From a virus: DNA of 59,932 bases. The translations under genes and the position numbers were made by a program. Where the stretch lies: IMG/VR virus record IMGVR_UViG_3300032322_001991, positions 1 through 59,932 of that record; one strand, given 5' to 3'. How positions within the stretch are numbered: position 1 is the first letter of the stretch; every line of letters starts with the position of its first letter. This document shows, one piece after another, positions 2,612 to 55,915 of this stretch. Under the pieces are notes generated by a model. It was given only the letters and a program-made list of their open reading frames with translations. It was not told the origin of the DNA and did not search any database.

Positions 2612-2871
2612 TGGAAACGATCAAGAAGCTCTGGGATTACGCGTGCATCACGTGGCTGTCCCTGACGCCCAAGGCGCAGATCACGGTCCTCGTGGCCTTG
2701 TTCATCATGTTCTTCGCAGGCGCCGTGCTGGCCCAGGGCAAGACCTGGCAAGTGCTGGAGCACGCGTGTGACAAGTCCGGCGCCGTGAACACGCTGGTCA
2801 TCGCCGTGGCCGAGCCCGGCTTCGTGCAGATCAGCTGGGATAACGCCCACGTCTGCGGCAAGGCGTCGTGA
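2611..2871 (+). CDS. small single-pass membrane protein
   Basis: Encodes 86 residues. Its ATG overlaps the previous stop (TGATG) and AAGGGAG lies seven bases upstream. One hydrophobic segment at about residues 24-41 is followed by a short domain with two Cys (about residues 52 and 81) that could form a disulfide outside the membrane. Its GTGA overlap with the terminase start suggests translational coupling. Function is unknown. Confidence 0.65.
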   Translation: METIKKLWDYACITWLSLTPKAQITVLVALFIMFFAGAVLAQGKTWQVLEHACDKSGAVNTLVIAVAEPGFVQISWDNAHVCGKAS

Positions 2872-5800: not shown

Positions 5801-6299
5801 CTGGAAGCTGAAGCAGACCCCCGTCATGACTCAGGCCGGGATGGTCGTAGGCAAGGGGTACCAGAACATACCCTGGGCCTGGCCGCATGACGGCCTCCAG
5901 CATGACAAGGGGTCTGGCGAAGTCCTGAAGGACCAGTACCAGAAGTTCGGCATGAACATGCTCTCGGAGAGGGCCCAGTTCGAGAACCGTCCTGACGGGA
6001 AGCCGGGTGGCAACAGCCTTGAGGCTGGTGTATCGATGATGCTGGAGAGAATGCAAACACGCAGACTACGCGTGTTTTCCAACCTGGAGGACTGGTTCTC
6101 GGAGTTCCGGCTGTACCACCGGAAGGAAGGGATCATCGTCAAGGAGGACGACGACATTCTGTCCGCGACGCGCTACGGGATCATGATGCTGCGCAAGGCG
6201 AAGACCTTGCTGGAGATGGAACCGAGCCGTGGCACTTTCAACCGACCCGCTGCGAACCTGCCTGTTTTCCAGGTGTTCAACGCGGACTGTGCGTACTGA
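2868..6299 (+). CDS. terL: terminase large subunit precursor with two inteins
   Basis: DNA-packaging motor protein with an N-terminal ATPase and a C-terminal RNase H-like nuclease. The 1143-residue precursor would mature to 492 residues after removal of inteins at residues 61-378 and 488-820, a normal TerL length. Joining the exteins restores Walker A as AANQSGKT, the YDQGR-TKWQ segment, and Walker B as IVAMDEEPP. The nuclease half has GIDFGWDHPTG (first acidic residue), a WPHDG segment and a late EDDDILSATRYG segment. The start is GTG and overlaps the upstream stop. Both inteins interrupt the ATPase core, so splicing is required for activity. Intein 1 also contains an antisense gene. Confidence 0.95.
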   Translation: MTDLASLSTEEKLELLQLLEIRDRRQRENMLASYKPYAKQKEFHNAGATYRERLFMAANQCSGPWTWVETPGSKALSVDTFFEPGARVQAWDGESRCVAPVRHGYLKGIEKAYRLVLETGEFFDVTASHQVLTEQGWLSVSRIVSLSSGLRCWQTTEDFLASCVAGGRLHDPRLPLDPGSDPARLLERVGARERSLCFSLEDAEARTRSHTSLLSDNVLHPNAGCDPRQIEALCAQFAGPAMSSSVLPLTGEHQAFLQLARVSHLLPQSGDEPRLLSLPADVLVGIVAGCFSSEEKTALREFSDRVARLSLDVSGPGSSIEELGQDAARLGTFYPFDGPRLVGGRTITAVVPIGYQPILDCHVDRVNCYWAGGVVHHNSGKTLSAAYEIAIHATGRYPDWWQGRRFHRPVSILVGSESGELTRKGLQRLIVGSPQKREEWGTGAIPKECLGNTTMKPGVPDALASVTVKNEYGGESVIQFNSYDQGRMQHVDSRVLTPTGWKRIGDIQPGDEVITVDGSATRVLGVFPHGVKDLYELTFDSGIKTLAGAEHLWRVGERTRGPWRTVETAELIHRYGDTGERINSNDQVSIPHVAPVQFPAKPVPLDPYLVGALLGDGCVRQNRVRFTSKDEQVVAEVAAGAFKSGAQIARWGDIQYGFRDSQGIREALKDLGLADLGALEKRVPHDYLWNEPEVRFAVLQGLMDTDGSVSVKGTMSFSTTSRGLAEDVSFLVRSFGGKAILRSKGQKNRNNELFLVSIRMPGPPPFRLQRKLDRCIRPESETHRHLLRTIKRVEPGEAVCIAVEHPSHLYVTDDFIVTHNTKWQADTIDIVAMDEEPPMDIYTEALTRTNATGGIVFVTFTPLLGMSQVVKRYLTEKPEGTTVIRMTIDDAEHYTPEERARIIAAYPEHEREARTKGIPMLGSGAVFPVAESAISVAPFEIPAHWARINGIDFGWDHPTGFVCMAHDRDTDTVYVYDAWKLKQTPVMTQAGMVVGKGYQNIPWAWPHDGLQHDKGSGEVLKDQYQKFGMNMLSERAQFENRPDGKPGGNSLEAGVSMMLERMQTRRLRVFSNLEDWFSEFRLYHRKEGIIVKEDDDILSATRYGIMMLRKAKTLLEMEPSRGTFNRPAANLPVFQVFNADCAY
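3040..3873 (-). CDS. HTH-HTH-HNH homing endonuclease encoded antisense inside TerL intein 1
   Basis: Encodes 277 residues from the ATG at 3873, with GAGG (3882-3885 on the plus strand) eight bases upstream and a near-consensus promoter at 3939-3967. Two helix-turn-helix units lie at about residues 21-47 and 72-98. An HNH nuclease core at about 125-196 includes EHRLVLE (145-151), VVDHVDG (163-169), N174, PENL (176-179) and SNADH (184-188). This resembles HNH proteins of phages that combine DNA-recognition modules with a cleavage domain. The recognisable protein spans only the intein region between splicing blocks B and F. Residues after about 200 are the reverse of blocks A and B and look unconserved. 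Its TAG stop lies eight bases outside the intein, in extein DNA. Expected role: cutting intein-free terL alleles. Confidence 0.85.
   Translation of the reverse strand: MGRTSLVEPHLDQVLQWNSQGLTRQEIAERLGLKTHVVQSFLQRRNIQPQFLPGRLLVEKGDEVRRLIEEEGETHEQVARRLGVHRSTVERYCSSLGLRTARTGPRSGAGHSQRWGGGRCLTKGWYVSVYAPLHPQARSTGYVPEHRLVLEVVLGRYLDPAEVVDHVDGHPQHNWPENLRLFASNADHLKATLSGKPKASLVRSALGDWPSRQRTLPSPGPDDTLSQCPSDIRAALERHIEIHRPTLEHVHLARKTYLRTGPWSPAFQPTSTGLSTD
3048..4001 (+). mobile_element. TerL intein 1 (class 1) at Walker A
   Basis: A 318-residue intein (TerL residues 61-378). Cys61 starts block A. Block B contains T-A-S-H. Block F is DCHVDRVNCYWAGGVV, and the C-terminal His-His-Asn precedes Ser379. Excision rejoins ANQ to SGKT, the ATP-binding P-loop. 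The part between blocks B and F (about TerL residues 145-335) contains no endonuclease motif in this frame and reads as featureless Ser/Arg/Leu-rich linker. The opposite strand of this same part encodes a complete HNH endonuclease. Confidence 0.9.
3939..3967 (-). promoter_or_regulatory. antisense promoter for the intein-nested HNH gene
   Basis: On the minus strand, TTGACC (-35, 3962-3967) and TAGAAT (-10, 3939-3944) are separated by 17 bases, with five of six matches to sigma70 consensus at each box. The expected start is about 60 bases upstream of the HNH ATG at 3873. The element lies inside the plus-strand codons for intein block F, so one sequence serves protein splicing on one strand and promoter function on the other. 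Its spacer contains GACAGTC, seen in other promoter candidates here. Confidence 0.65.
4329..5327 (+). mobile_element. TerL intein 2 (class 3) with in-frame LAGLIDADG endonuclease
   Basis: A 333-residue intein (TerL residues 488-820) between YDQGR and TKWQ, just before Walker B. The first residue is Met, not Cys or Ser. Block A then reads DSRVLTPTGW. Class 3 inteins splice through a Trp-Cys-Thr set, and all three positions are visible: Trp in GAEHLW of block B, Cys in AVCIAVEH of block F, and Thr821 after the terminal His-Asn. Two LAGLIDADG-type motifs are in frame: LVGALLGDG and LQGLMDTDG. It appears to be a full, possibly active element. Confidence 0.9.
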
Positions 6300-36278: not shown

Positions 36279-37295
36279 ATGGCCACCTTCGATCAGCGCC
36301 CGAACGGGAAGTGGCGGGCCCAGATCCGCCGGACCGGCTTCGCGGCGAAGGCAAAGACCTTCCGCACCAAGGCCGAGGCCGAGAAGTGGGCCAGGTCCCT
36401 GGAGACCCAGCTCGACAAGGGGTTCGAGATCGACGTCTCGGAGATGCGCAAGACCCGGGTCTGCGACATCCTGAACCAGTTTCTAGAGAAGAAGGTCCCC
36501 TACCGCAAGGGCGGCAAGTGGGAGACCGTGCGGATCAACATGATGCTGCGCGAGCCCTTCGCATCCCAGCGTCTGGACCAGCATCTATCGAACGCTATCT
36601 CCGGCTGGATAGACGATCGGATGAAGGTCTGCTCCGCGGCCACCGTCAACCGCGACCTGAACCTGCTCTCGTCCGTGTTCACGTTCGCGATCCGCGAAAT
36701 GCGAATACCGCTGCCGGTCAACCCGGTCCACAACGTCAAGCGGCCCAAGGTCGACGACAAGAGCCGGGGCAAGATCTGGTCCGAGGCAGACCTGGAGAAG
36801 CTGCGCGCTGCAGCGGCAGCCGAGCGTCACCGCGAGGGGACGACCTACGACTACGTCGTGCCCGCGGTCGAGCTCGCGCTGGCCACGGCCATGCGGCTGG
36901 GCGAGGTCTGCTCTCTGACCGTGGGCAACGTCCACCTGGACGAGCGCTACGCGTACCTGGCCGAGACCAAGAACGGAGACAGCCGCGAGGTGCCCCTGCC
37001 CACGCGTGCGCTCAAGGTGCTGCAGCCGCTGATCCAGGCCGCGAAGGACGCGGGCCGCGAGGATCTTTTCCCCGTTGGGAAGGACGTCCTCGGGCTACGA
37101 TTCCGCCAGCTGCGCGCCAAGGCGGGGCTGGGCGACCTGCGGTTCCACGACACCCGGCACACCGCCGCGACTCGCGCGAGCAAGGTCCTGCACAACGTGC
37201 TGGAACTCGCTGCCTTCACCGGCCACCGCAGCCTGAAGTCCCTCCAGCGGTACTACCACGCCGACGCCAGCGAGCTGGCCCGCAGGCTCGGGTAG
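36279..37295 (+). CDS. int: tyrosine recombinase (phage integrase)
   Basis: The 338-residue site-specific recombinase should integrate and excise the phage genome. The N-terminal arm-binding domain (about 1-50: FDQRPNGKWRAQIRRTGF) is followed by a core-binding SAM-like domain (about 60-150) and the catalytic domain. Catalytic residues visible are Arg206 (AMRLGEV), Lys231, His290 and Arg293 (HDTRHT), His316 (GHRS) and the nucleophile Tyr325 or Tyr326. All are present, so it should be active. It marks the phage as temperate. The excisionase-like gene lies close by on the other strand. Confidence 0.9.
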   Translation: MATFDQRPNGKWRAQIRRTGFAAKAKTFRTKAEAEKWARSLETQLDKGFEIDVSEMRKTRVCDILNQFLEKKVPYRKGGKWETVRINMMLREPFASQRLDQHLSNAISGWIDDRMKVCSAATVNRDLNLLSSVFTFAIREMRIPLPVNPVHNVKRPKVDDKSRGKIWSEADLEKLRAAAAAERHREGTTYDYVVPAVELALATAMRLGEVCSLTVGNVHLDERYAYLAETKNGDSREVPLPTRALKVLQPLIQAAKDAGREDLFPVGKDVLGLRFRQLRAKAGLGDLRFHDTRHTAATRASKVLHNVLELAAFTGHRSLKSLQRYYHADASELARRLG

Positions 37296-40313: not shown

Positions 40314-40744
40314 TGGCCTACGGTGTCCTTGATCGTGTAGTGCCGCGGGTTCTTGTCGGCATGCTTGTCGATGATTCGACCGGCCGCCTCGTTCAGCTCG
40401 CTGTAGAACGGCTTGCTCGAAGGGAACCGGTCGTCTTCGCACATGCCCTGGATCTGCGCGTCTCGCCACACGGTCAGAGATGCGATCGCTTTGGTCAGGT
40501 GGCTCATGCCACTGTCGGGATCGAGGTCTTCGCCTTCCCAGTAGGCGATCAAGTGCCGCATGGTCGCGTCGAAATACACGCTTGACCGAACGCCCACCGC
40601 GCGGAAATTCCCTCTTCCATATTTGCTCGCGCCTTCGAGCATGGCCACGCCGAGCTCCGCAACAACGGCCATCGGGACAACAGACAGGGGCGCTTTGCGA
40701 ACGCCGACACAGTCCTTCGGATTGCTCGCTTTGATCTCGCTCAC
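40310..40744 (-). CDS. DUF5664-like phage protein, possible dATP/dGTP hydrolase-related
   Basis: Encodes 144 residues from a GTG with GGAGG eight bases upstream. It has the family pattern NPKDCVGVRKAPLSVVPMAVV, EGASKYGRGNFR, RHLIAYWEGEDLDPDSG and HLTKAIASL. The domain is often described as the N-terminal part of dATP/dGTP diphosphohydrolases and occurs in many phages next to MazG-like genes, as here. Enzymatic activity is not proven by sequence. Confidence 0.75.
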   Translation of the reverse strand: MSEIKASNPKDCVGVRKAPLSVVPMAVVAELGVAMLEGASKYGRGNFRAVGVRSSVYFDATMRHLIAYWEGEDLDPDSGMSHLTKAIASLTVWRDAQIQGMCEDDRFPSSKPFYSELNEAAGRIIDKHADKNPRHYTIKDTVGQ

Positions 40745-43700
40745 TTCTTAAACCTCCTCGAACGGTATGCCTCGTAGCTCAGCGGAAGGTCCGCGTACCA
40801 GTCGGCAGGCTTGCACATCAGTCGCCCAAATTCTTCCTCGGATCCAAAGCCCTCGGGCACGTGGGCCATCAGCTCGTCGTGGGCCATCAGCACGATCGGG
40901 TACCCGGCGGCCTCGACGTTCATCGCGCCCTGGGCCAGGATGTCGCGAGCGGTGCCCTGCACAGCGCTCTGGTAGATGCTGCTGCCGATCAGCTTGTGCC
41001 GGCAGAACTTGCGCGTGTACGTGTCGACAGACTCGACCGTGACCACCGGCCGGCGGGCCTTGCGCTTCTCGGTGGCGCCCGTCTCCGGGTTGTAGAAGTC
41101 CTCGAACCAGGGCGCGTCCTGAATCTCCACACGAGGCGACGACCAGGCGATCACGCGGCCGCTCGGCAGACGCATCCAGAGGAAGTTCTTGTGGACTTTC
41201 AGCGCCAGCTTCTCGCCGGCCTTGAACCACTCGCCAGGGTTCTGCGTGGCCTTGATCGAGGCGTCGCCGCAGGCGTACCAGAGCTTGCGCACCTTGTCGT
41301 ACTCGCTGCGGTAGGCGTTCACGACCCCCTCGCTGCGCGCGAGCGTGAGCGTGACGCCGTACCCCTTCGCGTAGTCGATCAGCCCCTGCGGGCCTTGGCC
41401 GAAAAGGCAGTTGTGCGCAATAACAACTCCGGCGTCAGTCCGTATTGCAAATCGACTCCGAGGTCCGCAGTTCACGATGTCGTACGTATGCTCCTCGGCA
41501 ACCGGACTGCGCGGCGATGATCTGCTCGGGACTTTGGCCCTCTCGAATCTTGCGAGCGACGGTTCCGGAAGACCGGTACGAGGAGCAATACTTTTGCCAG
41601 AAATCGCGGGCGGTGAGAGTCTCGCCTGCCCATACAACCCGGTGAGTTCGGCGCGTGTTTGAACACTGTTCCTTGCGCGTTGCCAGCCTGCAGTTATCCG
41701 GCGAGTAGGGCCCGTCGTTGTCCACACGTTCCAGCTCAAGCTTGGGGTTGTCCCAGCCCGGCTGGGCCACGACCCAGCGCAGAAAAGCCGCGCCGTCGTA
41801 GCGCCACTCATCGCAAAAGAATATGCCGCGCTGGCCGTAGTTTGGATAGTGGCGGCAATCTGGGTCGTGGCAACGAGCGATTGCACCCAGCCTACGATTG
41901 AGCCAACGCTCTCGCAAAGCCGAATCCGGAATGATGCTTGCGTAGCCGGTTTTGTCTCGGAGAACCTGGTGCGTGTCGGAGTTTGCGCACCACCTGCACG
42001 CTCGGGACGTTCCGCGTTTAAGGTTGTAGAAAGGCACCACCCGTTCGACGCCGCATTCACACCGAACGCGGGCCGCAATCTCTTTTCTGTATCTTTCGTG
42101 GCCGATAACAGTCCAGCGGCTAAACACGTCGCCGATCTCAGGTCGACCAAGTCTGCTCGTTCCCATCCGTTTTCCTGAAGAAGCAAGTGCTCCGGCGTAA
42201 CCCGCACGCCAGCAAGGTCTATGACCGCTTTCTTTCCCTGGTAAACGACCCCGCCGTGCTCTACGAAATCAACGCCATCCCATATTCGGTCATTGTTGCG
42301 GACTTGGTGTATGGGCACAAACCCCCTACAAGTCAGCACTTCCGTGTCCGCAGCAAAGCACCCAAGCACGGCGCTCTTGCTCATCTGGCGCATGTCTTTC
42401 GTGACCTGGTCGTACGGCACGTTGTAGAGGCTCGTGCTGGCGAAGACCTTGTACTCGTCCAGGCCCTTGGCAAACATGTCGACCTTGTCCTGCTGCCCGG
42501 CCAGCCACACGCCGACCCGGTTCTCCACCGAGCTGTAGTCAGCGTCGATGAAGTCGTGCCCTGGCTTGGCCTTGAGCACGCCGCGGATGCAGCTCACGGC
42601 CGCGTCCATGACATCGTCGCCCCACAACAGGATCGCGGCCTCGTGGTCGCCCGAGCCGAGAATCACGTGCGCGTTGGCGATGTCGTCGAGGCCCTTCTTC
42701 TCGTTAACCATCAGCGTGGGCCGAGCGATGTTTTGCACGTTGAAGCCACCTCGGCTGGCCCACCGACCGGTGCCCGCGCCGTGGTACACGAACAGGTTCT
42801 TCATCGTGCCGTCGTCGGCGGCGATCTTCAGTATCCGGTCGTACTTGGCCGTGCTCGTTTGGCAGACGGCAGCGCGGATCTCCAAGGCTCGGCGCACCTC
42901 GGGCGTCAGGTCGGTCCTCTTGAGCACGGACTCTACCGTGTCCCCGGTCATGTCCGGCATCAGGTCGTCGGTGTCCTTCTCCTCGTCGAAGGTCACCGGC
43001 TCGGCGAGGCCATGCTGCTCGTTGACCCATGTCAGCAGCCCGTTGCGATTGGTGGCTCGCAACACCCGCCGGCCGGTGATCCGTCTGAGTTCCCTGTTCA
43101 GCCGCTCCTTCTCGTCCTCGACCAGGGTGCGGATGTTCTTCGCCTCGTCCAGTGCCACGGGCACGCCACGCAGGTTCATCCTCTGCGTGAGCAGCCACAC
43201 CTCCTGCTCGAAGTCGGACAGCGGGCGTAGCTTGGCGGCTACAGCCTCCTCCGCGACCACATCTTGGGTGTTGTACGGGACGAACTCGGCGAACAGCTTC
43301 TCGTCCTCGACCCACTTTCCCGGCCGAGTCTTCGTGGGCGGATGGGGCTTGCACAACCTCTGGATCAGGTACTTGCCACGCTTGTCCTTCTGCTTGTCTG
43401 CCGGCAGGCCGAGCACCTTGGCGCACTCGCCTAGCTTCTGAGGCAGGTTCATCGCCGCTGCCTGCGCCATCGTGTCGACGCACTGCTCCAGCTTCAACGG
43501 TGGCCAGCCGTACTTGGGCACGCAGACGTTGGCCCAGATGTTGCATTCGAACATCGCGTTCCAGGCCCGGATGCGGCCGCCCGAGGCAACGTGGTCGAGC
43601 AGCTGCTCCAGCTCCTGACGTCGGCACCAGTCGTCGGACAGGTGCGGCCCGCGGTGGGACACGACCGGCACGGCCATGTCCGGCATGCGGAAGGCCAGCA

Positions 43701-43803
43701 TCAGAGCCTCGCACTCGGGATCCTTCGAGTAGCGCTCGACACCGAGCTTGATGTCGGTGGCACTGCGTGACTCAAAGTCGATCGGTACGATGCTCGTGCT
43801 CAT
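40741..43803 (-). CDS. family A DNA polymerase precursor with intein
   Basis: Replicative polymerase with 3'-5' exonuclease and polymerase domains. The 1020-residue precursor becomes 703 residues after removal of the intein at 482-798. Exonuclease motifs are DFES (9-12), WNAMFECNIW (81-90) and YNTQD (177-181). Polymerase motif A is DADYSSVENR (420-429). Motif B (the O-helix) is RQMSKSAVLG joined to CLFGQG. Motif C is HDE at 975-977. The intein splits the O-helix that binds dNTPs, so only spliced protein can work. The start overlaps a very short upstream frame (ATGA). Member of the leftward replication operon. Confidence 0.9.
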   Translation of the reverse strand: MSTSIVPIDFESRSATDIKLGVERYSKDPECEALMLAFRMPDMAVPVVSHRGPHLSDDWCRRQELEQLLDHVASGGRIRAWNAMFECNIWANVCVPKYGWPPLKLEQCVDTMAQAAAMNLPQKLGECAKVLGLPADKQKDKRGKYLIQRLCKPHPPTKTRPGKWVEDEKLFAEFVPYNTQDVVAEEAVAAKLRPLSDFEQEVWLLTQRMNLRGVPVALDEAKNIRTLVEDEKERLNRELRRITGRRVLRATNRNGLLTWVNEQHGLAEPVTFDEEKDTDDLMPDMTGDTVESVLKRTDLTPEVRRALEIRAAVCQTSTAKYDRILKIAADDGTMKNLFVYHGAGTGRWASRGGFNVQNIARPTLMVNEKKGLDDIANAHVILGSGDHEAAILLWGDDVMDAAVSCIRGVLKAKPGHDFIDADYSSVENRVGVWLAGQQDKVDMFAKGLDEYKVFASTSLYNVPYDQVTKDMRQMSKSAVLGCFAADTEVLTCRGFVPIHQVRNNDRIWDGVDFVEHGGVVYQGKKAVIDLAGVRVTPEHLLLQENGWERADLVDLRSATCLAAGLLSATKDTEKRLRPAFGVNAASNGWCLSTTLNAERPERAGGAQTPTRTRFSETKPATQASFRIRLCESVGSIVGWVQSLVATTQIAATIQTTASAAYSFAMSGATTARLFCAGSWPSRAGTTPSLSWNVWTTTGPTRRITAGWQRARNSVQTRAELTGLYGQARLSPPAISGKSIAPRTGLPEPSLARFERAKVPSRSSPRSPVAEEHTYDIVNCGPRSRFAIRTDAGVVIAHNCLFGQGPQGLIDYAKGYGVTLTLARSEGVVNAYRSEYDKVRKLWYACGDASIKATQNPGEWFKAGEKLALKVHKNFLWMRLPSGRVIAWSSPRVEIQDAPWFEDFYNPETGATEKRKARRPVVTVESVDTYTRKFCRHKLIGSSIYQSAVQGTARDILAQGAMNVEAAGYPIVLMAHDELMAHVPEGFGSEEEFGRLMCKPADWYADLPLSYEAYRSRRFKK
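41410..42360 (-). mobile_element. DNA polymerase intein (class 1) in the O-helix motif
   Basis: A 317-residue intein from Cys482 to Asn798, followed by Cys799. Block A is CFAADTEVLTCRGF, block B is VTPEHLLLQENGW with the T-x-x-H, block F is HTYDIVNCGPRSRFAI, and the end is Ala-His-Asn. The interior of this frame has no endonuclease motif and is made largely of Thr, Ala, Ser, Arg, Gly and Pro residues. The same DNA, read in another frame on the same strand, encodes a full HNH endonuclease. Confidence 0.9.
41435..42166 (-). CDS. HNH homing endonuclease overprinted inside the polymerase intein
   Basis: Encodes 243 residues from an ATG with AGGA seven bases upstream, in a different frame of the same strand as the polymerase. 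A treble-clef/zinc-ribbon-like start (GDVFSRWTVIG, Cys36, Cys38, Cys57, Cys60) is followed by an HNH core: YGQRGIFFCDEW (110-121), LERVDNDGPYSPDNCRLAT (145-163), EQCSNTR (166-172). A C-terminal DNA-recognition segment includes AGETLTARDFWQKY. It starts right after block B of the intein and ends nine codons before the intein end. It is probably translated from the polymerase message by internal initiation. Expected role: cutting intein-free polymerase genes. Confidence 0.9.
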   Translation of the reverse strand: MGTSRLGRPEIGDVFSRWTVIGHERYRKEIAARVRCECGVERVVPFYNLKRGTSRACRWCANSDTHQVLRDKTGYASIIPDSALRERWLNRRLGAIARCHDPDCRHYPNYGQRGIFFCDEWRYDGAAFLRWVVAQPGWDNPKLELERVDNDGPYSPDNCRLATRKEQCSNTRRTHRVVWAGETLTARDFWQKYCSSYRSSGTVARKIREGQSPEQIIAAQSGCRGAYVRHRELRTSESICNTD

Positions 43804-47124: not shown

Positions 47125-47451
47125 TTGAGACCGAACTTCCTGGGGCCCAGCGCGGCCCCCAACCCCGACGTCGGCGAGGACGAAGAGTGGATGCCGGTCG
47201 AGTCCGGCGCCTACGCCATGCTGGTCCATTGCTACGGGACCGGCGGGGAGCTGCAGAACGTGATCCCCTGTTCGATCCTCGGGTTCGTGCTGCGGCCCTG
47301 CGGGGTCCACAGGGCTCTGAGCCTGCGCGGGTGGGTTCTGATGTCCGAGATCTCCGTCTGGACGCCCGACGGGTGCGTCATGGCCAAGGGCGGGGTCATG
47401 TTCCCCGACCGCGAAACCTACATCGTGTGGGCAAAGGAGAACGTGTCGTGA
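47125..47451 (+). CDS. hypothetical protein, first gene of rightward early operon
   Basis: Encodes 108 residues from a TTG start with GGAG six bases upstream. An upstream ATG at 47050 lies inside the control region and is not used. An acidic start leads to a beta-rich core (VESGAYAMLVHCYGTGG, IPCSILGFVLRPCGV), with three Cys. Its GTGA overlap with the next gene implies coupling. No family is recognised. Confidence 0.6.
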   Translation: MRPNFLGPSAAPNPDVGEDEEWMPVESGAYAMLVHCYGTGGELQNVIPCSILGFVLRPCGVHRALSLRGWVLMSEISVWTPDGCVMAKGGVMFPDRETYIVWAKENVS

Positions 47452-47846
47452 CTCCCTGGGGTGCGGTCGTCGAAAGCGTCATCCTGGCCCTGCAGACGCT
47501 TGGCAAGGGCACTCTCCACGACGTCGTCGAGGAGACCGGCCTGAGTCAAGAGGCCGTGCGCAAGCCTCTGAACAGGATGTGCCGAGAGCCGATCGAGAAC
47601 CGGCGTCTGCACATCTGCGAGTGGACCAGGGTCGCGTTCCACGGGCGTGTCTACCCGCGGCCGGTGTACGCGCTCGGTGCCAAGCCGAACGCCAAGAAGC
47701 CGAAGCCGAAGACCCACACCGAGCTCGCTCGTGAGTGGGCCAGGAAGAGCCAGGCGCTGGCCTCGGCGATCCGTTTCGGGCACGTGCCTCAGAAGGAGGC
47801 GATCAAGATCGTGGCCGCGGCGCGCAAGGCCGGGGCCCGCATTTGA
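47448..47846 (+). CDS. winged-helix DNA-binding protein
   Basis: Encodes 132 residues from a GTG. GKGTLHDVVEETGLSQEAVRKPLNRM (about residues 17-42) is a helix-turn-helix, with a wing after it containing RLHICEW and VYPRPVYALG. The C-terminal half is basic (NAKKPKPK) and helical. This could be a regulator of the early operon and a candidate for binding the control region at 46993-47077. Confidence 0.65.
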   Translation: MTPWGAVVESVILALQTLGKGTLHDVVEETGLSQEAVRKPLNRMCREPIENRRLHICEWTRVAFHGRVYPRPVYALGAKPNAKKPKPKTHTELAREWARKSQALASAIRFGHVPQKEAIKIVAAARKAGARI

Positions 47847-47858
47847 AAGGAGTACGAG

Positions 47859-48005
47859 ATGAAGCGAATCGACCCCGAGCAGCCGCCCTATGTCGAGGAC
47901 AGCACTCGCACGTGCGTGGGCCTGAGGATCATCCTCGCGGCAGCGATCGTGTGGATGCTCGCCGTCGCTGCGGTGATCGTCGTCGCCACGGGGAGCGGGG
48001 CATGA
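47859..48005 (+). CDS. small single-pass membrane protein
   Basis: Encodes 48 residues from ATG 47859, with AAGGAG six bases upstream. A polar, proline-containing N-terminus of about 20 residues is followed by a strongly hydrophobic helix (IILAAAIVWMLAVAAVIVV). Its TGA overlaps the next ATG. Too short for assignment to a family. Confidence 0.6.
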   Translation: MKRIDPEQPPYVEDSTRTCVGLRIILAAAIVWMLAVAAVIVVATGSGA

Positions 48006-48223
48006 AGTGGCGCAAGGGCTCGCCGCCCAGCATCGGCTGGTGGCCGGCGAGCAACGTTCGCAAGCCCGGGTTCGTGCGCTGGTGGGACGGCAGCCTGTGG
48101 AGCATGTACGCACGCCCAGAAGACACGCCCGAGCGCGCAGCACAGCGCGCAGCCAGCAAGGCACCGGACCAAGAGCACATCGAGTGGGCGGAGCGCCCTG
48201 CCTCGTGGGGGATGAAGTGCTGA
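48002..48223 (+). CDS. small tryptophan-rich protein
   Basis: Encodes 73 residues with seven Trp. SIGWWPASNVRKPGFVRWWDGSLWSMY is a repeated WW-x-G motif that resembles short surface or cell-wall-binding repeats, while the rest is helical and charged. It lies between two membrane proteins, and the next gene begins inside its 3' end. Function is unknown. Confidence 0.6.
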   Translation: MKWRKGSPPSIGWWPASNVRKPGFVRWWDGSLWSMYARPEDTPERAAQRAASKAPDQEHIEWAERPASWGMKC

Positions 48224-48873
48224 CCGCCGCTGCCCTGGCTGTGGGAACAGTCATCGGGGCATGCAGTTGGGACAGACCGGGTGTCGACCCGTTCATGGGC
48301 GACGTCGTGTCCGCCGTTGACCGCTACACGGATATCCCCGCCGACGTCAGGGCTAGGCTCAAGGCGCGCATGTTCGCTCGCCAGTACGACGAGGTGGCAG
48401 TAATCACGCGGGACGAGATCAAGGGCGAGTTCTTCTACTCGGACCTACGCGACATGCACTTCGGTGACGGCCGCATCTGCCGGCGCGTCTCGCGCAACTG
48501 GCCCTCCGGGCTGGTCGAGCGGGGCCTCGTGTACTGCGAGGAGGGCCGCTGCCTGATCGTGCCCACGGTCTGCCGCAACGTCAGCCGCATCACCCGCGTG
48601 AGCCGCGCGCAGCGCTCCGAGGAGCTGCCTGAGATCCGCATCGAGATCCCCGGCGGGTCTGGCCGGGACGGGCAGGTGCTGCCCTTCGGTGATGATCCCA
48701 CGACGCGGACCTTCGCCCCGCTCGAAACCGATGAGAGGCACCAGCCGGTGCCGCCCCTGCCGCCCATGCGTGGCGGCTTCACAGAGCCGATCCCCGAGCC
48801 CAGCACCTGGGCGCTGTTCATGCTGGGGATCCTGATGCTGCTGATTGCAGCGAAGAAAGGATGGGAGAGATGA
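48217..48873 (+). CDS. exported protein with PEP-CTERM-like C-terminal anchor
   Basis: Encodes 218 residues from a GTG. The N-terminus is hydrophobic (AAALAVGTVIGAC), with a Cys placed as in a lipobox, so it may be a lipoprotein. The middle is a mixed soluble domain with several Cys. The C-terminus reads IPEPSTWALFMLGILMLL then AAKKGWER. That is Pro-Glu-Pro, a membrane helix and a basic end, the tripartite PEP-CTERM sorting signal that host exosortases cut. Its presence in a phage gene is unusual and suggests cargo placed on the lysogen surface, and a host with exosortase. Confidence 0.6.
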   Translation: MLTAAALAVGTVIGACSWDRPGVDPFMGDVVSAVDRYTDIPADVRARLKARMFARQYDEVAVITRDEIKGEFFYSDLRDMHFGDGRICRRVSRNWPSGLVERGLVYCEEGRCLIVPTVCRNVSRITRVSRAQRSEELPEIRIEIPGGSGRDGQVLPFGDDPTTRTFAPLETDERHQPVPPLPPMRGGFTEPIPEPSTWALFMLGILMLLIAAKKGWER

Positions 48874-49436
48874 AAAACGTAACTGAAAACGCCAAGGTCT
48901 ACGGCGACGCTCGGGTCTCCGGCAACGCTTCGGTCTACGGCGACGCTCGGGTCTCCGGCAACGCCAGGGTCTACGGCGACGCTCTGGTCTGCGGCAACGC
49001 TTCGGTCTACGGCGACGCTCTGGTCTTAGGCAACGCTCAGGTCTGCGGCAACGCTGAGGTCTGCGGCAACGCTCAGGTCTTCGGCAACGCTGAGGTCTCC
49101 GGCAACGCCAGGGTCTACGGCAACGCTCGGATCTTGGGCAACGCTCAGGTCTACGGCGACGCTCAGGTCTCCGGCAACGCTCGGGTCTCCGGCAACGCAG
49201 TGATCGAGAAGACCAGCGACTACCTCGTCATCGGCCCAGCCAAGTCGAGCGGGCGCTTCACCACGGCGCACCGCGACAGCAAAATCGGCGTGCGGGTCAA
49301 CTGCGGGTGCTTCACCGGCACGGTGCGGGAGTTCAGCGCGGCCATCGAGGAGACGCACAAAGACAACCGCGAGGCGCTAGAGCAGTACCGACTGTTCTGC
49401 CAACTGATCGCATTCAACTTTGGAGTGACGGAATGA
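48870..49436 (+). CDS. hexapeptide-repeat left-handed beta-helix protein
   Basis: Encodes 188 residues. Residues about 8-110 contain 17 consecutive six-residue units of the form V-x-G-(D/N)-A-x, encoded by 18-base repeats. Such units form a left-handed beta-helix. A C-terminal domain (about 112-188) with YLVIGPAKSSGRFTTAHRDS and VNCGCFTGTVREFSAAI follows and is seen with such repeats in other phages. It may bind surfaces or nucleic acids. AAGGA eight bases upstream supports the ATG at 48870. Repeat number may vary between strains. Confidence 0.7.
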   Translation: MKNVTENAKVYGDARVSGNASVYGDARVSGNARVYGDALVCGNASVYGDALVLGNAQVCGNAEVCGNAQVFGNAEVSGNARVYGNARILGNAQVYGDAQVSGNARVSGNAVIEKTSDYLVIGPAKSSGRFTTAHRDSKIGVRVNCGCFTGTVREFSAAIEETHKDNREALEQYRLFCQLIAFNFGVTE

Positions 49437-49924
49437 ACGGGCAACCCGAAGCGCTGCGGCTTGCCACTTGGCTAGACCACGTAGACCTTGCCCCGATGGG
49501 CTGCGAAGACGCCGAGAAAGCTGCAGCCGAACTGCGCCGGTTGCACGCGGTGGAAGAAGAGTGGGCGAGGTTGTCGCAGGACGAAGGCAAAGCCGAGCGT
49601 GAGATAGAGCACCTGCACGAAGAGAACCGCAAGCTCAAGACCGTGATGGTCGCCGCAGCAGAAGAAATCTCTGCCCACTGGGACGCTCACTGCGACAGCG
49701 AGGGGTACGGCCCCGCAAACCTGATGCGACGGCTTGAGGATGGCATCGCCAGCGAGTACGGATACACGGCAGGTGCCTTTGCACGCCTTCGTGCGGTGAA
49801 TCAGGAACTTCTGCACGCACTGCACTGCATCAGCCTAGCTGCGCAGGACTCTGGCAGCACACGAGAAGGCATGGGGTTGTACGCCCGCGCCGTCATCGCC
49901 AAAGCGGAAGGAGAACCGAAATGA
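49433..49924 (+). CDS. coiled-coil accessory protein
   Basis: Encodes 163 residues; its start overlaps the previous stop. It has a central coiled coil (about 40-85, with EREIEHLHEENRKLKTVMVAAAEE), a middle segment HWDAHCDSEGYGPANLMRRLEDG, and a C-terminal helical part. This style of protein is common in accessory regions of beta-proteobacterial phages. Function is unknown. Confidence 0.55.
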   Translation: MNGQPEALRLATWLDHVDLAPMGCEDAEKAAAELRRLHAVEEEWARLSQDEGKAEREIEHLHEENRKLKTVMVAAAEEISAHWDAHCDSEGYGPANLMRRLEDGIASEYGYTAGAFARLRAVNQELLHALHCISLAAQDSGSTREGMGLYARAVIAKAEGEPK

Positions 49925-50466
49925 CTATCTACACCACCCTCAACAAAATCCGCCAGCACGGACCCTGCGCCAACGGCTGGGCCAAATTGCTGCGCTACCT
50001 CGGCAAGACGCAAGCCGACGACGAGCCGCTGGCTCTTGTCACGATCCTAGCCAGCAACGGCTTGGACGACGCGCTGTGGTGCTTGCGTGCCTGCGACGGT
50101 ATCGACAGCGAGGCGCGGCTCTACGCCGTGTGGTGCGCCCGACGGGTGCAGCACCTGATGACGGACCCGCGCTCGCTGACTGTGATGGATGCTGCCGAGC
50201 GGCACGCTAACGGCGAGGCGACAGACAAAGAGCTGACCACAGCGGAGGACGCAGCGAGGGCCGCAGCGAGGCACGCAGCGTGGGACGCAGCGAGGGGCGC
50301 AGCGAGGGCCGCAGCGAGGCACGCAGCGTGGGCCGCAGCGAGGGACGCAGCGAGGGACGCAGCGAGGGGCGCAGCGAGGGCCGCAGCGAGGGCCGCAGCG
50401 AGGGCCGCAGCGAGGGCCGCAGCGTGGGACGCACAAGCCGACGAATTCCGCAGGAGGTTTGGATGA
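49921..50466 (+). CDS. helical protein with Ala/Arg tandem repeat
   Basis: Encodes 181 residues. The first 100 form a helical domain ([53 protein letters not shown]) common in phage accessory regions. Residues about 111-170 are 15 copies of a four-residue A-A-(R/W)-x unit from a 12-base DNA repeat, likely one long helix. The DNA repeat number can vary by slippage without breaking the frame. Confidence 0.65.
50251..50430 (+). repeat. 15-copy 12-base tandem repeat (minisatellite)
   Basis: Fifteen consecutive 12-mers beginning GCAGCG, in variants such as GCAGCGAGGGCC, GCAGCGAGGCAC and GCAGCGTGGGAC. The unit length is a multiple of three, so copy changes keep the reading frame. It encodes the Ala/Arg helix of the gene at 49921-50466. 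The variants themselves repeat in blocks (copies 1-3 resemble 5-7), which indicates duplication of larger segments. Confidence 0.9.
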
Positions 50467-51222: not shown

Positions 51223-51540
51223 ATGACTGACCTGAGAACCGTCCCCGTGGAGCTGCTGCGGCAGGCGCTGGAGGCGTTGGAGAACACCACGCCGACCGGC
51301 TGGAACATGGAGCGAGACAAGCAGTTCTTTGCCGCCATGAACGCACTGCGCGCCGCGCTGGAGCAGCCGGAGCAGGGGCCGCACGGCTGCCACTGCGATC
51401 TTGAAGAGGGCATGGAGCCCGACGGCTGCGTGCTCGATGAAGGCAGGCCCGAGCACTGCATCTACGCCGGCAGCCTGCTGCGTGAAGGCAAGGACAAGAC
51501 CGCCTGTGAGTATTGGAAACCGATTGAGGTGAAGAGATGA
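51223..51540 (+). CDS. paralog 1 of the AAQQALEALE gene array
   Basis: Encodes 105 residues, AAGGAG seven bases upstream. It begins MTDLRTVPVELLRQALEALE, then ALRAALEQPEQ, matching three following genes. The C-terminal part has several Cys (CHCDLEEGMEPDGC, HCIYAG, ACEYW) that may bind metal. The array seems to reuse one N-terminal helical module with different tails. Function is unknown. Confidence 0.6.
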   Translation: MTDLRTVPVELLRQALEALENTTPTGWNMERDKQFFAAMNALRAALEQPEQGPHGCHCDLEEGMEPDGCVLDEGRPEHCIYAGSLLREGKDKTACEYWKPIEVKR

Positions 51541-52064
51541 ACAACCTACGAGAAGCCGCCCAGCAGGCGCTGGAGGCGTTGGAAGATTTGGGGATGAAGC
51601 ACTGCGAGATCACGGGCGAGGTGCTTCACAAGGAAGCGTACGCCGCCCTGCGCGCCGCGCTGGCGCAGCAGGAGCCTGACCTGCGCAACGCCAACCCCAT
51701 CGGCCTCACTCCACCTCAGAAGGCTCTGCAACAGGCGCAATTTCGCGTTGACGCGCTGGCGCAGCAGGAGCAGGCCGAGCCGGTGTTGGTCGTAGAAAAA
51801 GAGCCAGACTACATGAGCCGTGGGCATTTCTACGAGGGAAGCAAGCCGTTTATCGACCCGACATTAGTCTGGAAGCTACCAATCGGTACAAAGCTCTACA
51901 CCGCCCCACCCCGCCGCGAGTGGCGAGGGCTGTCGGTGGATGAGATCGACCGCATCGCCAAACAAGAATGGGGCGAAGACCACGAGATTTTTTGGTTCGA
52001 TGACGACGGTATCGCGCTGTTCGCCCGCGCCCTTGAAACTGCATTGAAGGAGAAGAACACATGA
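51537..52064 (+). CDS. paralog 2 of the AAQQALEALE gene array
   Basis: Encodes 175 residues. Starts MNNLREAAQQALEALE, has ALRAALAQQEP, a Gln-rich linker, and then KLYTAPPRREWRGLSVDEIDRIA with a C-terminal FARALETALKEKN helix. The PPRREW segment and the end recur in paralog 3. No catalytic motif. Start overlaps the preceding stop. Confidence 0.6.
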   Translation: MNNLREAAQQALEALEDLGMKHCEITGEVLHKEAYAALRAALAQQEPDLRNANPIGLTPPQKALQQAQFRVDALAQQEQAEPVLVVEKEPDYMSRGHFYEGSKPFIDPTLVWKLPIGTKLYTAPPRREWRGLSVDEIDRIAKQEWGEDHEIFWFDDDGIALFARALETALKEKNT

Positions 52065-52570
52065 CTGACTTGAGAACCGCAGCGCAGCAGGCGCTGGAGG
52101 CGTTGGAGAATGGAAAGCGTGTCCGCGCTGGTGAAGGAGGAACCAAGTATCAACCGCCGCTGGAAGACTCGGCCATCGCCGCCCTGCGCGCCGCGTTGGA
52201 GCAGCCGGAGCCGATGTGCGTCGGATGCGAGGGAAAGCCGACGCTCCAAAATAGCCCGTGCGCCGTTTGCGGCAAGATTGCGCAGCAGGAGCAGGAGCCG
52301 GTGGCTCGTATGCACGAAGATGGTAGCGGGCGGGTCATCAATCAGCGCAGCTACGCAGAGGCGCGGCGAGATGGCGGAGCATCGTGGTCGAGCGTCAAGA
52401 ACTACACGATTCCCCTCTACACCCATCCACCCCGCCGCGAGTGGCAGTCGTTGACGGAGGAGGAGCGCGACACTGCCATACGGTGGGCGGTAAACCAAGA
52501 AGACACGCACTTTTCACGCACCGTTGCCCGCGCCATCGAGCAAGCCTTGAGGAGCAAGAACCATGAATGA
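52061..52570 (+). CDS. paralog 3 of the AAQQALEALE gene array
   Basis: Encodes 169 residues. It shares the first 16 residues, the ALRAALEQPE helix, PLYTHPPRREWQSLTEEE and the ARAIEQALRSKN end with its neighbours, and adds a Cys segment (CVGCEGKPTLQNSPCAVCG) like a zinc ribbon. The leader AAGGAGAAGAAC is also copied. Function is unknown. Confidence 0.6.
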   Translation: MTDLRTAAQQALEALENGKRVRAGEGGTKYQPPLEDSAIAALRAALEQPEPMCVGCEGKPTLQNSPCAVCGKIAQQEQEPVARMHEDGSGRVINQRSYAEARRDGGASWSSVKNYTIPLYTHPPRREWQSLTEEERDTAIRWAVNQEDTHFSRTVARAIEQALRSKNHE

Positions 52571-53003
52571 CCTGAAGAAAGCCGCCCAGCAGGCGCTGGA
52601 GGCGTTGATGTGGCACGACGAAACCGTGCGGACAAGGGGTGATAACGAGGCCATCACCGCCCTGCGCGCCGCGTTGGAGCAGCCCAGCCCCGTCTTTCAA
52701 GACCATTCGATCCCGCTCGGGCGACGCACGCAGGAGCAGCCGATTCAGCCAACAGCGTGGCTGACCGACAGGCAAACCATGTACTTCGACAAGGAAGACG
52801 CGCGGCGCGATTGCGACGGGTTCATTCAACCCCTCTACACCCACCCCGCCGAACCCGACCCCCCGCCCGAGCCGATCTCCGACGCGAAGATCCGCGCGGA
52901 ATTCCGCGACATCGAGCGGCACACGTTGCTCGGCGAGATGACGCTTGAGGACTGGTTCGAGGCCGGCGTGCGCTACGCGGAGCGACAGCATGCCCAACAG
53001 TGA
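52563..53003 (+). CDS. paralog 4 of the AAQQALEALE gene array
   Basis: Encodes 146 residues beginning MNDLKKAAQQALEALM, then ITALRAALEQPSP, a polar linker, PLYTHPAEPDPPPEP and a helical end DWFEAGVRYAERQH. Overlaps the gene before by eight bases and the one after by 14. It looks like a diverged copy with a new C-terminal tail. Function is unknown. Confidence 0.6.
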   Translation: MNDLKKAAQQALEALMWHDETVRTRGDNEAITALRAALEQPSPVFQDHSIPLGRRTQEQPIQPTAWLTDRQTMYFDKEDARRDCDGFIQPLYTHPAEPDPPPEPISDAKIRAEFRDIERHTLLGEMTLEDWFEAGVRYAERQHAQQ

Positions 53004-53328: not shown

Positions 53329-53425
53329 CAGTTGGGCTGTCGCCCCCATAATCTTCACCCCCGCCGCAAGAGCCGCAGGACATGTGGCCGCTGCGGCGGT
53401 TGCGTTTCAACACCGAAAGGTGAGC

Positions 53426-55915
53426 ATGACCACCGAGTACACCACTCCACCGAAACCGGACACGATCAACCTTCGGATCGACAGCATCCCGAAGGTCCTG
53501 CAGAAAAAGAACAGATGGATCCTCTGGAGGTACGAGCTGAGGACCACGTCCAAGGGCGCGCAGAAGTGGGCCAAGGTGCCCAAGAACATCCGCGGCGGGC
53601 CGGCGTCCAGCACCGACCCGGCCACGTGGTCGTCGTTCGACGACGCTGTCGACGCATACATCGACTCGGGCGACCGTTTCGAAGGTGTCGGTTTTGTCCT
53701 CGACGCCAGCGACGGTGTCGTCGGTGTCGACCTTGACGACCACCGAGACCCGGCCACGGGAGATCTCGACCATCTGGCCTCGTCGGCGGTCGAGAGCATG
53801 CACGGATACTGGGAGGTGTCCCCCAGCGGGACCGGTGTCAAGGGCCTCGTCTTTGCTCCGTCGTCAGTGGACAGCCAGGCTGACCACAAGTCGGGGATCG
53901 AGATCTACACCAGCGGCCGGTACTTCGCGATCACGGGCCACGCGCTGAGGTCCGACATCGGCCCCGACCAGGGCCAGCAGCTGAAGGAATTCCTGGCCAA
54001 GCACGTGGGCCAGGTCAAGGAGGCGTCGACACGATCGTCGAGGGTCGGGCCGTCAGCGGCCGACATGGACCCCGACGCGCTCGACTTTTTCGAGCAGGCC
54101 GAGCACCCGGTCGTCCGCGGGTGGGACCTGCAGCGTGTCGTGGACGAGGTCCTGCCACACCTCGACGGGTCCGCATACCAGGACTGGATCCGCGTCGGGC
54201 AGGTCCTCCACCATCAGTGCAACGGGTCCCAGGAGGCTCTCCAAGAGTGGGACATGTGGAGCCGTGAGTTCGCCGGTTTCCAGGAGGGAGCATGCTCGGA
54301 CAAGTGGGACACTTTCGGCCTCAGCGGCCGCGTGACCACGCTCGCAGGGCTCCTGTCGGAGACACGTGACCAGCGGGAGGCGGTCGAGGGGGCGAGGCGG
54401 GAGAAGAAGCGACAAGAGCGTAGCGAGCATGTCAAGACCCTCGTCGAGCGGGTCCTCGGATGCGGGGACGTGGAGTCGCTCAAGGATGTCGTGGCCACCG
54501 TTCGGGAAGACACGACGATCGACGACACTGACCGCAACGGGTCGCTGACCGTCGCCGTCCAGCAGCGGTTCAAGGATCTCGGGTCGCCGCAGAAGCGGGA
54601 CGACGTGCGCAAGATGCTGAAGCCTGTCGGCGGTGCCGTTGGGCTGTCGGCGGGGCCTGACTGGCTCGATCGTTGGGTCTACGTGACCGACACCGACAGG
54701 TTCTTCAACCTGGACAGCAAGAGCACCGTCTCGGGCCGCGGTTTCGACGCGATCAACTCCCACCAGATGCCCGTCTCGCAGGACGGCCTGCACCGCGAGA
54801 GCGCGTCCGACTTCGCCATCAACGTGTGGCGCATCCGCGAAGTCAAGCAGGTCCTCTACGCACCCGGCCAGGGTGAGGTCTTCGAGATGCTCGGCGTGAC
54901 GTGGGCCAACGAGTACCGCGAGGCAACCGTCCCGAAGGCAGGGCCGGGGGGCGAGGCCGCGGTGAAGATGGTCCTCGCTCACCTAGAGAGGCTCTTCCCG
55001 GACCAGCGCGAGCGAGAGGTGCTGCTGTCGTGGATGGCTTGGAACGTCCGCAACCCCGGCCGGAAGGTCAGGTGGGCGCCCTACGTGTACGGCCCCCAGG
55101 GGACCGGCAAGACGTTCATCGCCGAGCTCATGGGGATGGTCATGGGCGACGCCAACACACGCGTCCTGGCGGGCACGACGATCCACTCGCCGTTCAACGG
55201 GTGGGCCACCGGGAGCGCACTGGTCACTCTGGAGGAGGCTTACCAGTCGGGGCACCTGTTCGAGACCGAGGAGAAGCTCAAGGGCCCGATCGCGAACAAC
55301 CAGATCGACGTCCACCGGAAAGGCAAGGACAGTTACCGTGCCCCGAACTTCACCAACTACCTGATCCTGTCCAACCACCCCGACGGGATCCCGATCGGTT
55401 CAGGCGACAGGCGGTTCTTCATTCTCCACTGCTCGATGACCGAGGATGAGGCCACGGCACTGTCCGAGGAAGGCTACTTCGACAGCCTCTTCGAGACCTG
55501 CAGGGCCAGCGTGCCGGGCCTCCGCCGATGGCTGGAGAGGGAGGTCCAGATGCACCCCGACTTCGACCCCGACGGTCGGGCACCCATCACCGAGGCCAGG
55601 CAGCAGGTCATCGAGATGAGCAAGGGCGACGACGAAGTCGCGCTCGAATCGGCGCTCGAAGGGGTCCAGGCGGTCACCGGGGCGAAGGTCAACTCGATCC
55701 TGTCCGATGCCGGGCTGCCCCAGGCGAAGCGTCAGAGGCTGCAGAAACTGCTGCAGAAGCTCGGCTTCGAGCAGCGTCAGAGTCGCATTCGGGTCGTCGC
55801 CGGGGGGCCCCAGCACCGGATCTACACCCGTCCCGGGCTGAGAACAGCGCACGACGATCGCGTGCGGGAGGAGCTGCTGGCCCAGGGGGGAGCCGAGCAG
55901 GATGGCTTCGCCTGA
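53426..55915 (+). CDS. bifunctional primase-polymerase / SF3-type helicase
   Basis: Encodes 829 residues from the ATG at 53426 with AAGG upstream. The N-terminal PrimPol module has VGVDLDDH (near residue 100), SPSGTGVKGL and a GIEIYTSGRYFAITGH segment. These are its metal-binding and nucleotide-binding motifs. The C-terminal ATPase has Walker A GPQGTGKT (556-563), Walker B ALVTLEEA and NNQIDVHRKGKDSY, followed by FTNYLILSNHPDGIPI, as in primase-helicase or virulence-associated E-like proteins. It would unwind and prime the phage origin. The repeat-rich region directly downstream is a good origin candidate. Confidence 0.85.
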   Translation: MTTEYTTPPKPDTINLRIDSIPKVLQKKNRWILWRYELRTTSKGAQKWAKVPKNIRGGPASSTDPATWSSFDDAVDAYIDSGDRFEGVGFVLDASDGVVGVDLDDHRDPATGDLDHLASSAVESMHGYWEVSPSGTGVKGLVFAPSSVDSQADHKSGIEIYTSGRYFAITGHALRSDIGPDQGQQLKEFLAKHVGQVKEASTRSSRVGPSAADMDPDALDFFEQAEHPVVRGWDLQRVVDEVLPHLDGSAYQDWIRVGQVLHHQCNGSQEALQEWDMWSREFAGFQEGACSDKWDTFGLSGRVTTLAGLLSETRDQREAVEGARREKKRQERSEHVKTLVERVLGCGDVESLKDVVATVREDTTIDDTDRNGSLTVAVQQRFKDLGSPQKRDDVRKMLKPVGGAVGLSAGPDWLDRWVYVTDTDRFFNLDSKSTVSGRGFDAINSHQMPVSQDGLHRESASDFAINVWRIREVKQVLYAPGQGEVFEMLGVTWANEYREATVPKAGPGGEAAVKMVLAHLERLFPDQREREVLLSWMAWNVRNPGRKVRWAPYVYGPQGTGKTFIAELMGMVMGDANTRVLAGTTIHSPFNGWATGSALVTLEEAYQSGHLFETEEKLKGPIANNQIDVHRKGKDSYRAPNFTNYLILSNHPDGIPIGSGDRRFFILHCSMTEDEATALSEEGYFDSLFETCRASVPGLRRWLEREVQMHPDFDPDGRAPITEARQQVIEMSKGDDEVALESALEGVQAVTGAKVNSILSDAGLPQAKRQRLQKLLQKLGFEQRQSRIRVVAGGPQHRIYTRPGLRTAHDDRVREELLAQGGAEQDGFA

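Follow-up and report, generated by a model that had tools for sequence, protein, structure and literature searches.

The window analysed here, a stretch of 59,932 nucleotides of viral DNA (IMG/VR record IMGVR_UViG_3300032322_001991), encodes at 48217..48873 (+) a protein that is better explained as a phage-carried, shortened member of a known bacterial family, the MHFG family of PEP-CTERM proteins, than as an isolated curiosity. The most interesting outcome of the analysis is the recurrence across phages, and to judge from their tails phage-borne PEP-CTERM proteins look recurrent beyond the MHFG family. For the window protein itself we give roughly even chances to a model in which the Sec pathway and exosortase of the host bring the core domain to the envelope of the infected cell, where it is displayed and affects the cell surface.

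The coordinates and the length of 218 amino acids reported in a preliminary description of the gene were confirmed. The start is a GTG at 48217 and the stop codon lies at 48871-48873, and direct reading revealed a Shine-Dalgarno sequence, GGGGGA (48206..48211, +), about 5 nucleotides 5' of the start. The GTG and the stop codon of the gene before it overlap, and an ATGA overlap joins the stop of the MHFG gene to the gene downstream. The whole protein matches the NCBIfam profile NF038119 ("MHFG family PEP-CTERM protein") with 217.7 bits (E 3.3e-64), where the curated cut-off of this equivalog profile is 100 bits; this membership had not been seen in the preliminary description. The MHFG motif, the conserved cysteines and the VPTVCRNVS block, all of which occupy conserved alignment columns, are present. 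No PHROGs family was matched by the window protein, and the floc_PepA profile gave 11 bits at a cut-off of 80.

The sorting tail (residues 192-218; 48790..48870, +) comprises the motif PEPSTWA, a membrane helix with a KD value of 2.58 and a basic cluster after the helix (AAKKGWER, ending in KKGWER). With this tail, EPIPEPSTWALFMLGILMLLIAAKKGWER, TIGR02595 scores 20.9 (cut-off 16) and Pfam PF07589 scores 20.7 bits, which is exactly at its gathering score of 20.7. The PEP-CTERM-like signal proposed earlier is thus a genuine tail. The motif on its own is moderately surprising, as a PEP-type tail was found in 1 of the 540 open reading frames of the window and in 6 of 60,002 from codon-shuffled windows, equivalent to about 0.05 expected per window. 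What lifts the tail above chance is the full-length match to NF038119, the presence of a tail in 10/12 phage rows (one of the two rows without it runs off the contig end) and the identical PEPSTWA in the sibling phage L095.

The core domain (residues 16-136; 48262..48624, +), supported by the AlphaFold2 model and the conserved columns, contains the cysteines C16, C88, C107, C112 and C119. It was predicted by AlphaFold2 as a small alpha/beta fold (pTM 0.82, mean pLDDT 88), with the C-terminal helix 195-217 separate from it. Core and tail are connected by a low-confidence linker of variable length (residues 137-191; 48625..48789, +; pLDDT mostly 50-70), in which the window protein and its sibling differ by a 9-residue indel. 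Searches with Foldseek and VIA-align, using the full model and the core alone against the PDB and the full model also against a viral library, yielded no significant match, and a sequence-profile search of the PDB gave nothing useful. This absence of a structural match does not establish that the predicted fold is new. An MHFG-like core also forms the N-terminus of S8 subtilases of about 710 amino acids in several Burkholderiales genomes (L194:5047-7182 (+), L195:3083-5218 (-), L196:4875-7028 (+), L197:2702-4816 (+) and L198:2442-4652 (+)), where it is combined with a fervidolysin-type prodomain and bacterial Ig domains. These modules keep the equivalents of C16, C88, C107 and C112 and are without C119, by this comparison apparently the odd cysteine of MHFG proteins that end in a PEP-CTERM tail. 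The subtilases with the related core are expected to be secreted. A function was found for none of the MHFG proteins.

The N-terminus of the window protein is a short hydrophobic leader (residues 1-15, MLTAAALAVGTVIGA; 48217..48261, +) with a KD value of 2.04 over 11 residues and no basic residue. Between the window phage and its sibling, nucleotide changes in the leader have reached saturation, and the leader is hydrophobic in both. The suggestion that it may be a lipoprotein signal did not hold up: processing by signal peptidase II was rejected because the lipobox is not conserved, being found in 6/12 phage rows and 1/79 chromosomal rows, because the n-region has no basic residue and because the cysteine is shared with the subtilase modules. 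VIGAC in the window protein is a loose lipobox fit and the sibling has Thr at position -1, hence no lipobox. Chromosomal members mostly have Q, H or N immediately before C16, and the equivalent cysteine of the subtilase modules follows PE in L194 and AQ in L196. Since these modules keep it, C16 is most simply read as a structural residue, probably engaged in a disulfide, and not as a lipidated cysteine. The subtilase leaders, MPVLATLALAASLSSLPEC, are of the same lysine-free kind as the leader of the window protein, which argues that such leaders can function in export, and we infer that the window protein is exported by means of its leader.

Three phage homologues deviate from this organization. 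L100 (L100:10007-10693), L101 (L101:10001-10639) and L102 (L102:1897-2547) begin with M[IL]xxCSW and have no leader; the starts of L100 and L101 overlap the upstream stop, and that of L102 follows closely after it. The core is retained in all three, as is a hydrophobic tail. In L101 the PEP motif has been lost, yet the family score is 177 bits. Because these three are leaderless and one of them is without the PEP motif, it is unlikely that all phage MHFG proteins are processed by an exosortase.

The genetic setting is clearly that of a phage, with a large terminase, a portal-like head-tail protein, a capsid protein, an endolysin, a family A DNA polymerase, a primase, a helicase and a tyrosine integrase (36279..37295, +; PF00589, E 8e-25; phrog_1), which indicates a temperate lifestyle. 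Upstream of the MHFG gene are located a weakly HTH-like gene (47448..47846, +; PF08221, E 0.002, below the cut-off), a reading frame for a 48-residue protein with one hydrophobic span (47859..48005, +; direct reading) and a DUF2510-like gene (48002..48223, +; PF10708, 21.4 bits, just under the cut-off of 24), for which the sibling phage has no match. A YdcK-type beta-solenoid gene (48870..49436, +; PF18836, E 4.6e-24) follows directly downstream, and a primase-like replication protein with PriCT_2 and DUF5906 (53384..55915, +) is encoded further downstream on the same strand. Gene order, overlapping starts and the integrase support the earlier assignment of the gene to an early or replication operon of a temperate phage. 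Nucleotide comparison of the right-hand third of the window revealed no close match among isolated phages, and a tblastn search of INPHARED and PLSDB with the window protein found no isolated-phage relative. When the 331-base region before the integrase was compared with 399 genomes in a search for the host attachment site, only short, chance-like matches were obtained.

Several further features of this region were recorded. The repeat region of the YdcK-type gene (48870-49436, +) differs between the window phage and its sibling. The protein encoded at 49921-50466 (+) ends in a low-complexity repeat (15 protein letters, not shown), and a relative with 79% identity adjoins the MHFG gene downstream in the otherwise different phage L099. 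Four adjacent genes at 51223-53003 (+) have similar N-termini (e.g. MTDLRTAAQQALEALE) and look like tandem paralogues. The DNA polymerase A reading frame (40741-43803, -; 1020 amino acids) contains an intein-like insertion (CFAADTEVLTCRG ... IAHNC), which is apparently absent from the roughly 700-residue counterpart of the sibling (L095:2054-4156, -). The large terminase reading frame (2868-6299, +; 1143 amino acids) is apparently split by a LAGLIDADG/Hint-type intein (PF14528, E 1.9e-13).

In IMG/VR we identified 11 further contigs with an MHFG gene, mostly on unrelated backbones. L095 is the sole sibling of the window phage among them; L097 and L098 are alike, L008 and L009 share the sequence, and the remaining contigs have, outside the gene, no more than scattered weak matches to the window phage. 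The phage MHFG genes are found next to genes for DNA polymerase A, YqaJ, RecT, helicase, integrase, DNA methylase, portal, large terminase, tail protein and endolysin, and from these neighbours they tend toward regions of early or replication genes. A tree built from the core puts the phage copies on long branches and requires 4 label changes for them; a single origin of the phage copies is possible on this tree. A comparison of the core between window and sibling resulted in a dN of 0.043 and a dS of 0.206 (dN/dS about 0.21), and the window gene is under purifying selection: the low core dN/dS, the leader that stays hydrophobic and the unchanged PEPSTWA show that the gene is maintained by selection. 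A divergent MHFG-like PEP-CTERM protein was additionally noticed on a 118-kb IMG/VR contig (L117:4780-4803, +).

A search of IMG/VR with a strict DNA pattern for PEPxTWA[LM] returned 72 stretches (L116-L187). In 72/72 the motif is in frame, at most 45 residues from the end of the reading frame and followed by a hydrophobic stretch, so that all of them have PEP-CTERM-like tails and the rarity of phage PEP-CTERM proteins had been overstated before. Fifty of the contigs are 15 kb or longer, and at least 26 of these contain a terminase of phrog_2. Such phrog_2 counts are lower bounds, since this family detected no terminase in the MHFG phage records, although a phrog_675 terminase and a portal are encoded in one of them, L100; some contigs without a phrog_2 terminase may include host flanks. 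The PEP-CTERM protein of L136, whose gene has genes for a terminase and a major head protein next to it, is a member of the NF038126 FxDxF family (58.7 bits, cut-off 50). For two other phage PEP-CTERM proteins, tblastn against INPHARED and PLSDB identified no isolated-phage relatives, and a literature search, incomplete in its coverage, found no paper describing phage-encoded PEP-CTERM proteins. An exosortase was present neither in the window nor in 10 MHFG viral records nor on any of these 50 longer contigs (0/50); under the display model the phage would rely on the exosortase of its host. It is conceivable, though we hold it only tentatively and would sooner doubt it, that many unrelated phage lineages have repeatedly recruited PEP-CTERM proteins of at least two families and display them via a host exosortase absent from the examined records, as an unrecognised general route of surface conversion.

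On the bacterial side, a scan with one genome per species detected 106 MHFG relatives, and the 80 listed are almost all from Burkholderiales, among them Roseateles, Paucibacter, Pelomonas, Rubrivivax and Janthinobacterium. Neighbour clustering revealed a fixed housekeeping locus consisting of a SWIB-domain gene, a response regulator, the MHFG gene and uvrA, each neighbour being common to 45 to 55 of the 80 loci listed. Extra or divergent chromosomal copies were considered as prophage genes and rejected, as no phage genes were recognised nearby in five such regions read by eye. Within 298 genomes of the taxonomic family, 44 with an MHFG core and 161 with an exosortase, the enzyme occurs in 41/44 MHFG-positive genomes versus 120/254 without MHFG (Fisher p = 1.8e-9, a value inflated by shared ancestry). 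An order-wide NF038119 tally was left out of this comparison because it is dominated by the PEP-CTERM tails of other families. The co-occurrence fits a need of the members for the sorting enzyme and bears out the earlier view of a normally chromosomal family tied to exosortase carriers. An exosortase is also encoded in 3 of 5 genomes that hold relatives of the phage portal. The proposal that the protein narrows the host range to exosortase carriers stays plausible, but it is weaker than first stated since the three leaderless homologues may not reach the exosortase. Sigma-54 sites were not enriched versus background 5' of the chromosomal MHFG genes, and no good site was detected within 400 nucleotides upstream of the window gene.

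According to the display model, the protein would be translated from the early replication operon, as gene order and overlapping starts suggest, and the short uncharged leader would take it through Sec. In the periplasm the core is predicted to fold with two disulfides formed by C16, C88, C107 and C112, leaving C119 as the odd cysteine. The C-terminal PEP helix would probably hold the protein in the inner membrane until the host exosortase acts and processes it to the outer surface or the exopolysaccharide, where the MHFG protein of the host itself may be expected too. Speculatively, a cell that is infected or lysogenic could have its envelope changed in this way, for example in the adsorption of other phages or in aggregation; superinfection exclusion or altered aggregation is a possible phenotype. 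Arguments against this model are the leader without a basic residue, the leaderless L100-L102, the lost PEP motif of L101 and the location of the gene in a multi-gene operon.

Four other explanations were weighed. The phage protein could act as a sorting decoy that occupies or saturates the host exosortase, so that the PEP-CTERM proteins of the host remain undisplayed and the core matters little. The tail is indeed the part common to unrelated phage PEP-CTERM proteins, and the phages have no exosortase of their own; however, purifying selection acts on the core too, the core is the most conserved part among the phage copies, and leaderless members should miss the periplasmic active site, which makes a decoy rather improbable. 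Equally improbable is a role in which the phage protein acts on a secreted subtilase of the host as its partner or regulator, by binding, inhibiting or tethering the protease. It draws on the MHFG-like module in front of the prodomain of S8 proteases from several Burkholderiales genomes and on the common four-cysteine scaffold, but the modules share just 36-42% identity with the window core and do not have C119, such a long subtilase-type reading frame exists in only 9/44 MHFG-positive genomes, and the interaction is a proposal.

That the protein is not exported and uses its C-terminal helix merely as an inner-membrane anchor for an intracellular role would suit L100-L102 with their core and hydrophobic tail. 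Such a role is quite unlikely, because a hydrophobic leader is kept in the window protein and 7 other phage copies, and the four conserved cysteines and the fusion to subtilases indicate a location outside the cytoplasm. Least probable, and already disfavoured, is a passenger gene picked up by chance from a host without gain for the phage: the chromosomes of some Burkholderiales commonly carry the family, but neither the core dN/dS nor the long-branched phage copies on several backbones and in compact overlapping operons agree with it.

The PEP-CTERM/exosortase system has so far been described as chromosomal and linked to exopolysaccharide. Should its substrates be routine phage cargo, environmental bacteria of biofilms and flocs could, on infection or lysogeny, be altered in their surface, in aggregation and in their susceptibility to phages. 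The phage copies, with a core related to a module on secreted subtilases, would in that case also offer a way into the function of the MHFG family.

Compared with the chromosomal NF038119 proteins of Burkholderiales, the window protein has the same core from C16 to VPTVCRNVSRI, five cysteines and a PEP-CTERM tail, but it is phage-encoded in an overlapping multi-gene operon, its linker is shorter and its leader runs directly into the first cysteine; the best chromosomal match is only about 48% identical over the full length. With the PEP-CTERM/EpsH (exosortase) system (PMC1569441) it has in common the C-terminal PEP motif, the membrane helix and the basic residues, whereas the phage possesses the substrate only and no exosortase, and the gene is not a single-gene operon as is typical of PEP-CTERM genes (PMC1569441). 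PepA, which promotes floc formation in Aquincola by retaining exopolysaccharide on the cells (PMC9850573), resembles the window protein in its PEP-CTERM tail and Burkholderiales setting and differs in being a chromosomal, RpoN-dependent member of another protein family. The protein of L136 is likewise a PEP-CTERM protein, and the phage contig that encodes it has no exosortase, but its core is unrelated and its signal peptide looks conventional. Superinfection-exclusion proteins such as P22 SieA (PMC10883804) are comparable as phage-encoded envelope proteins, by analogy only.
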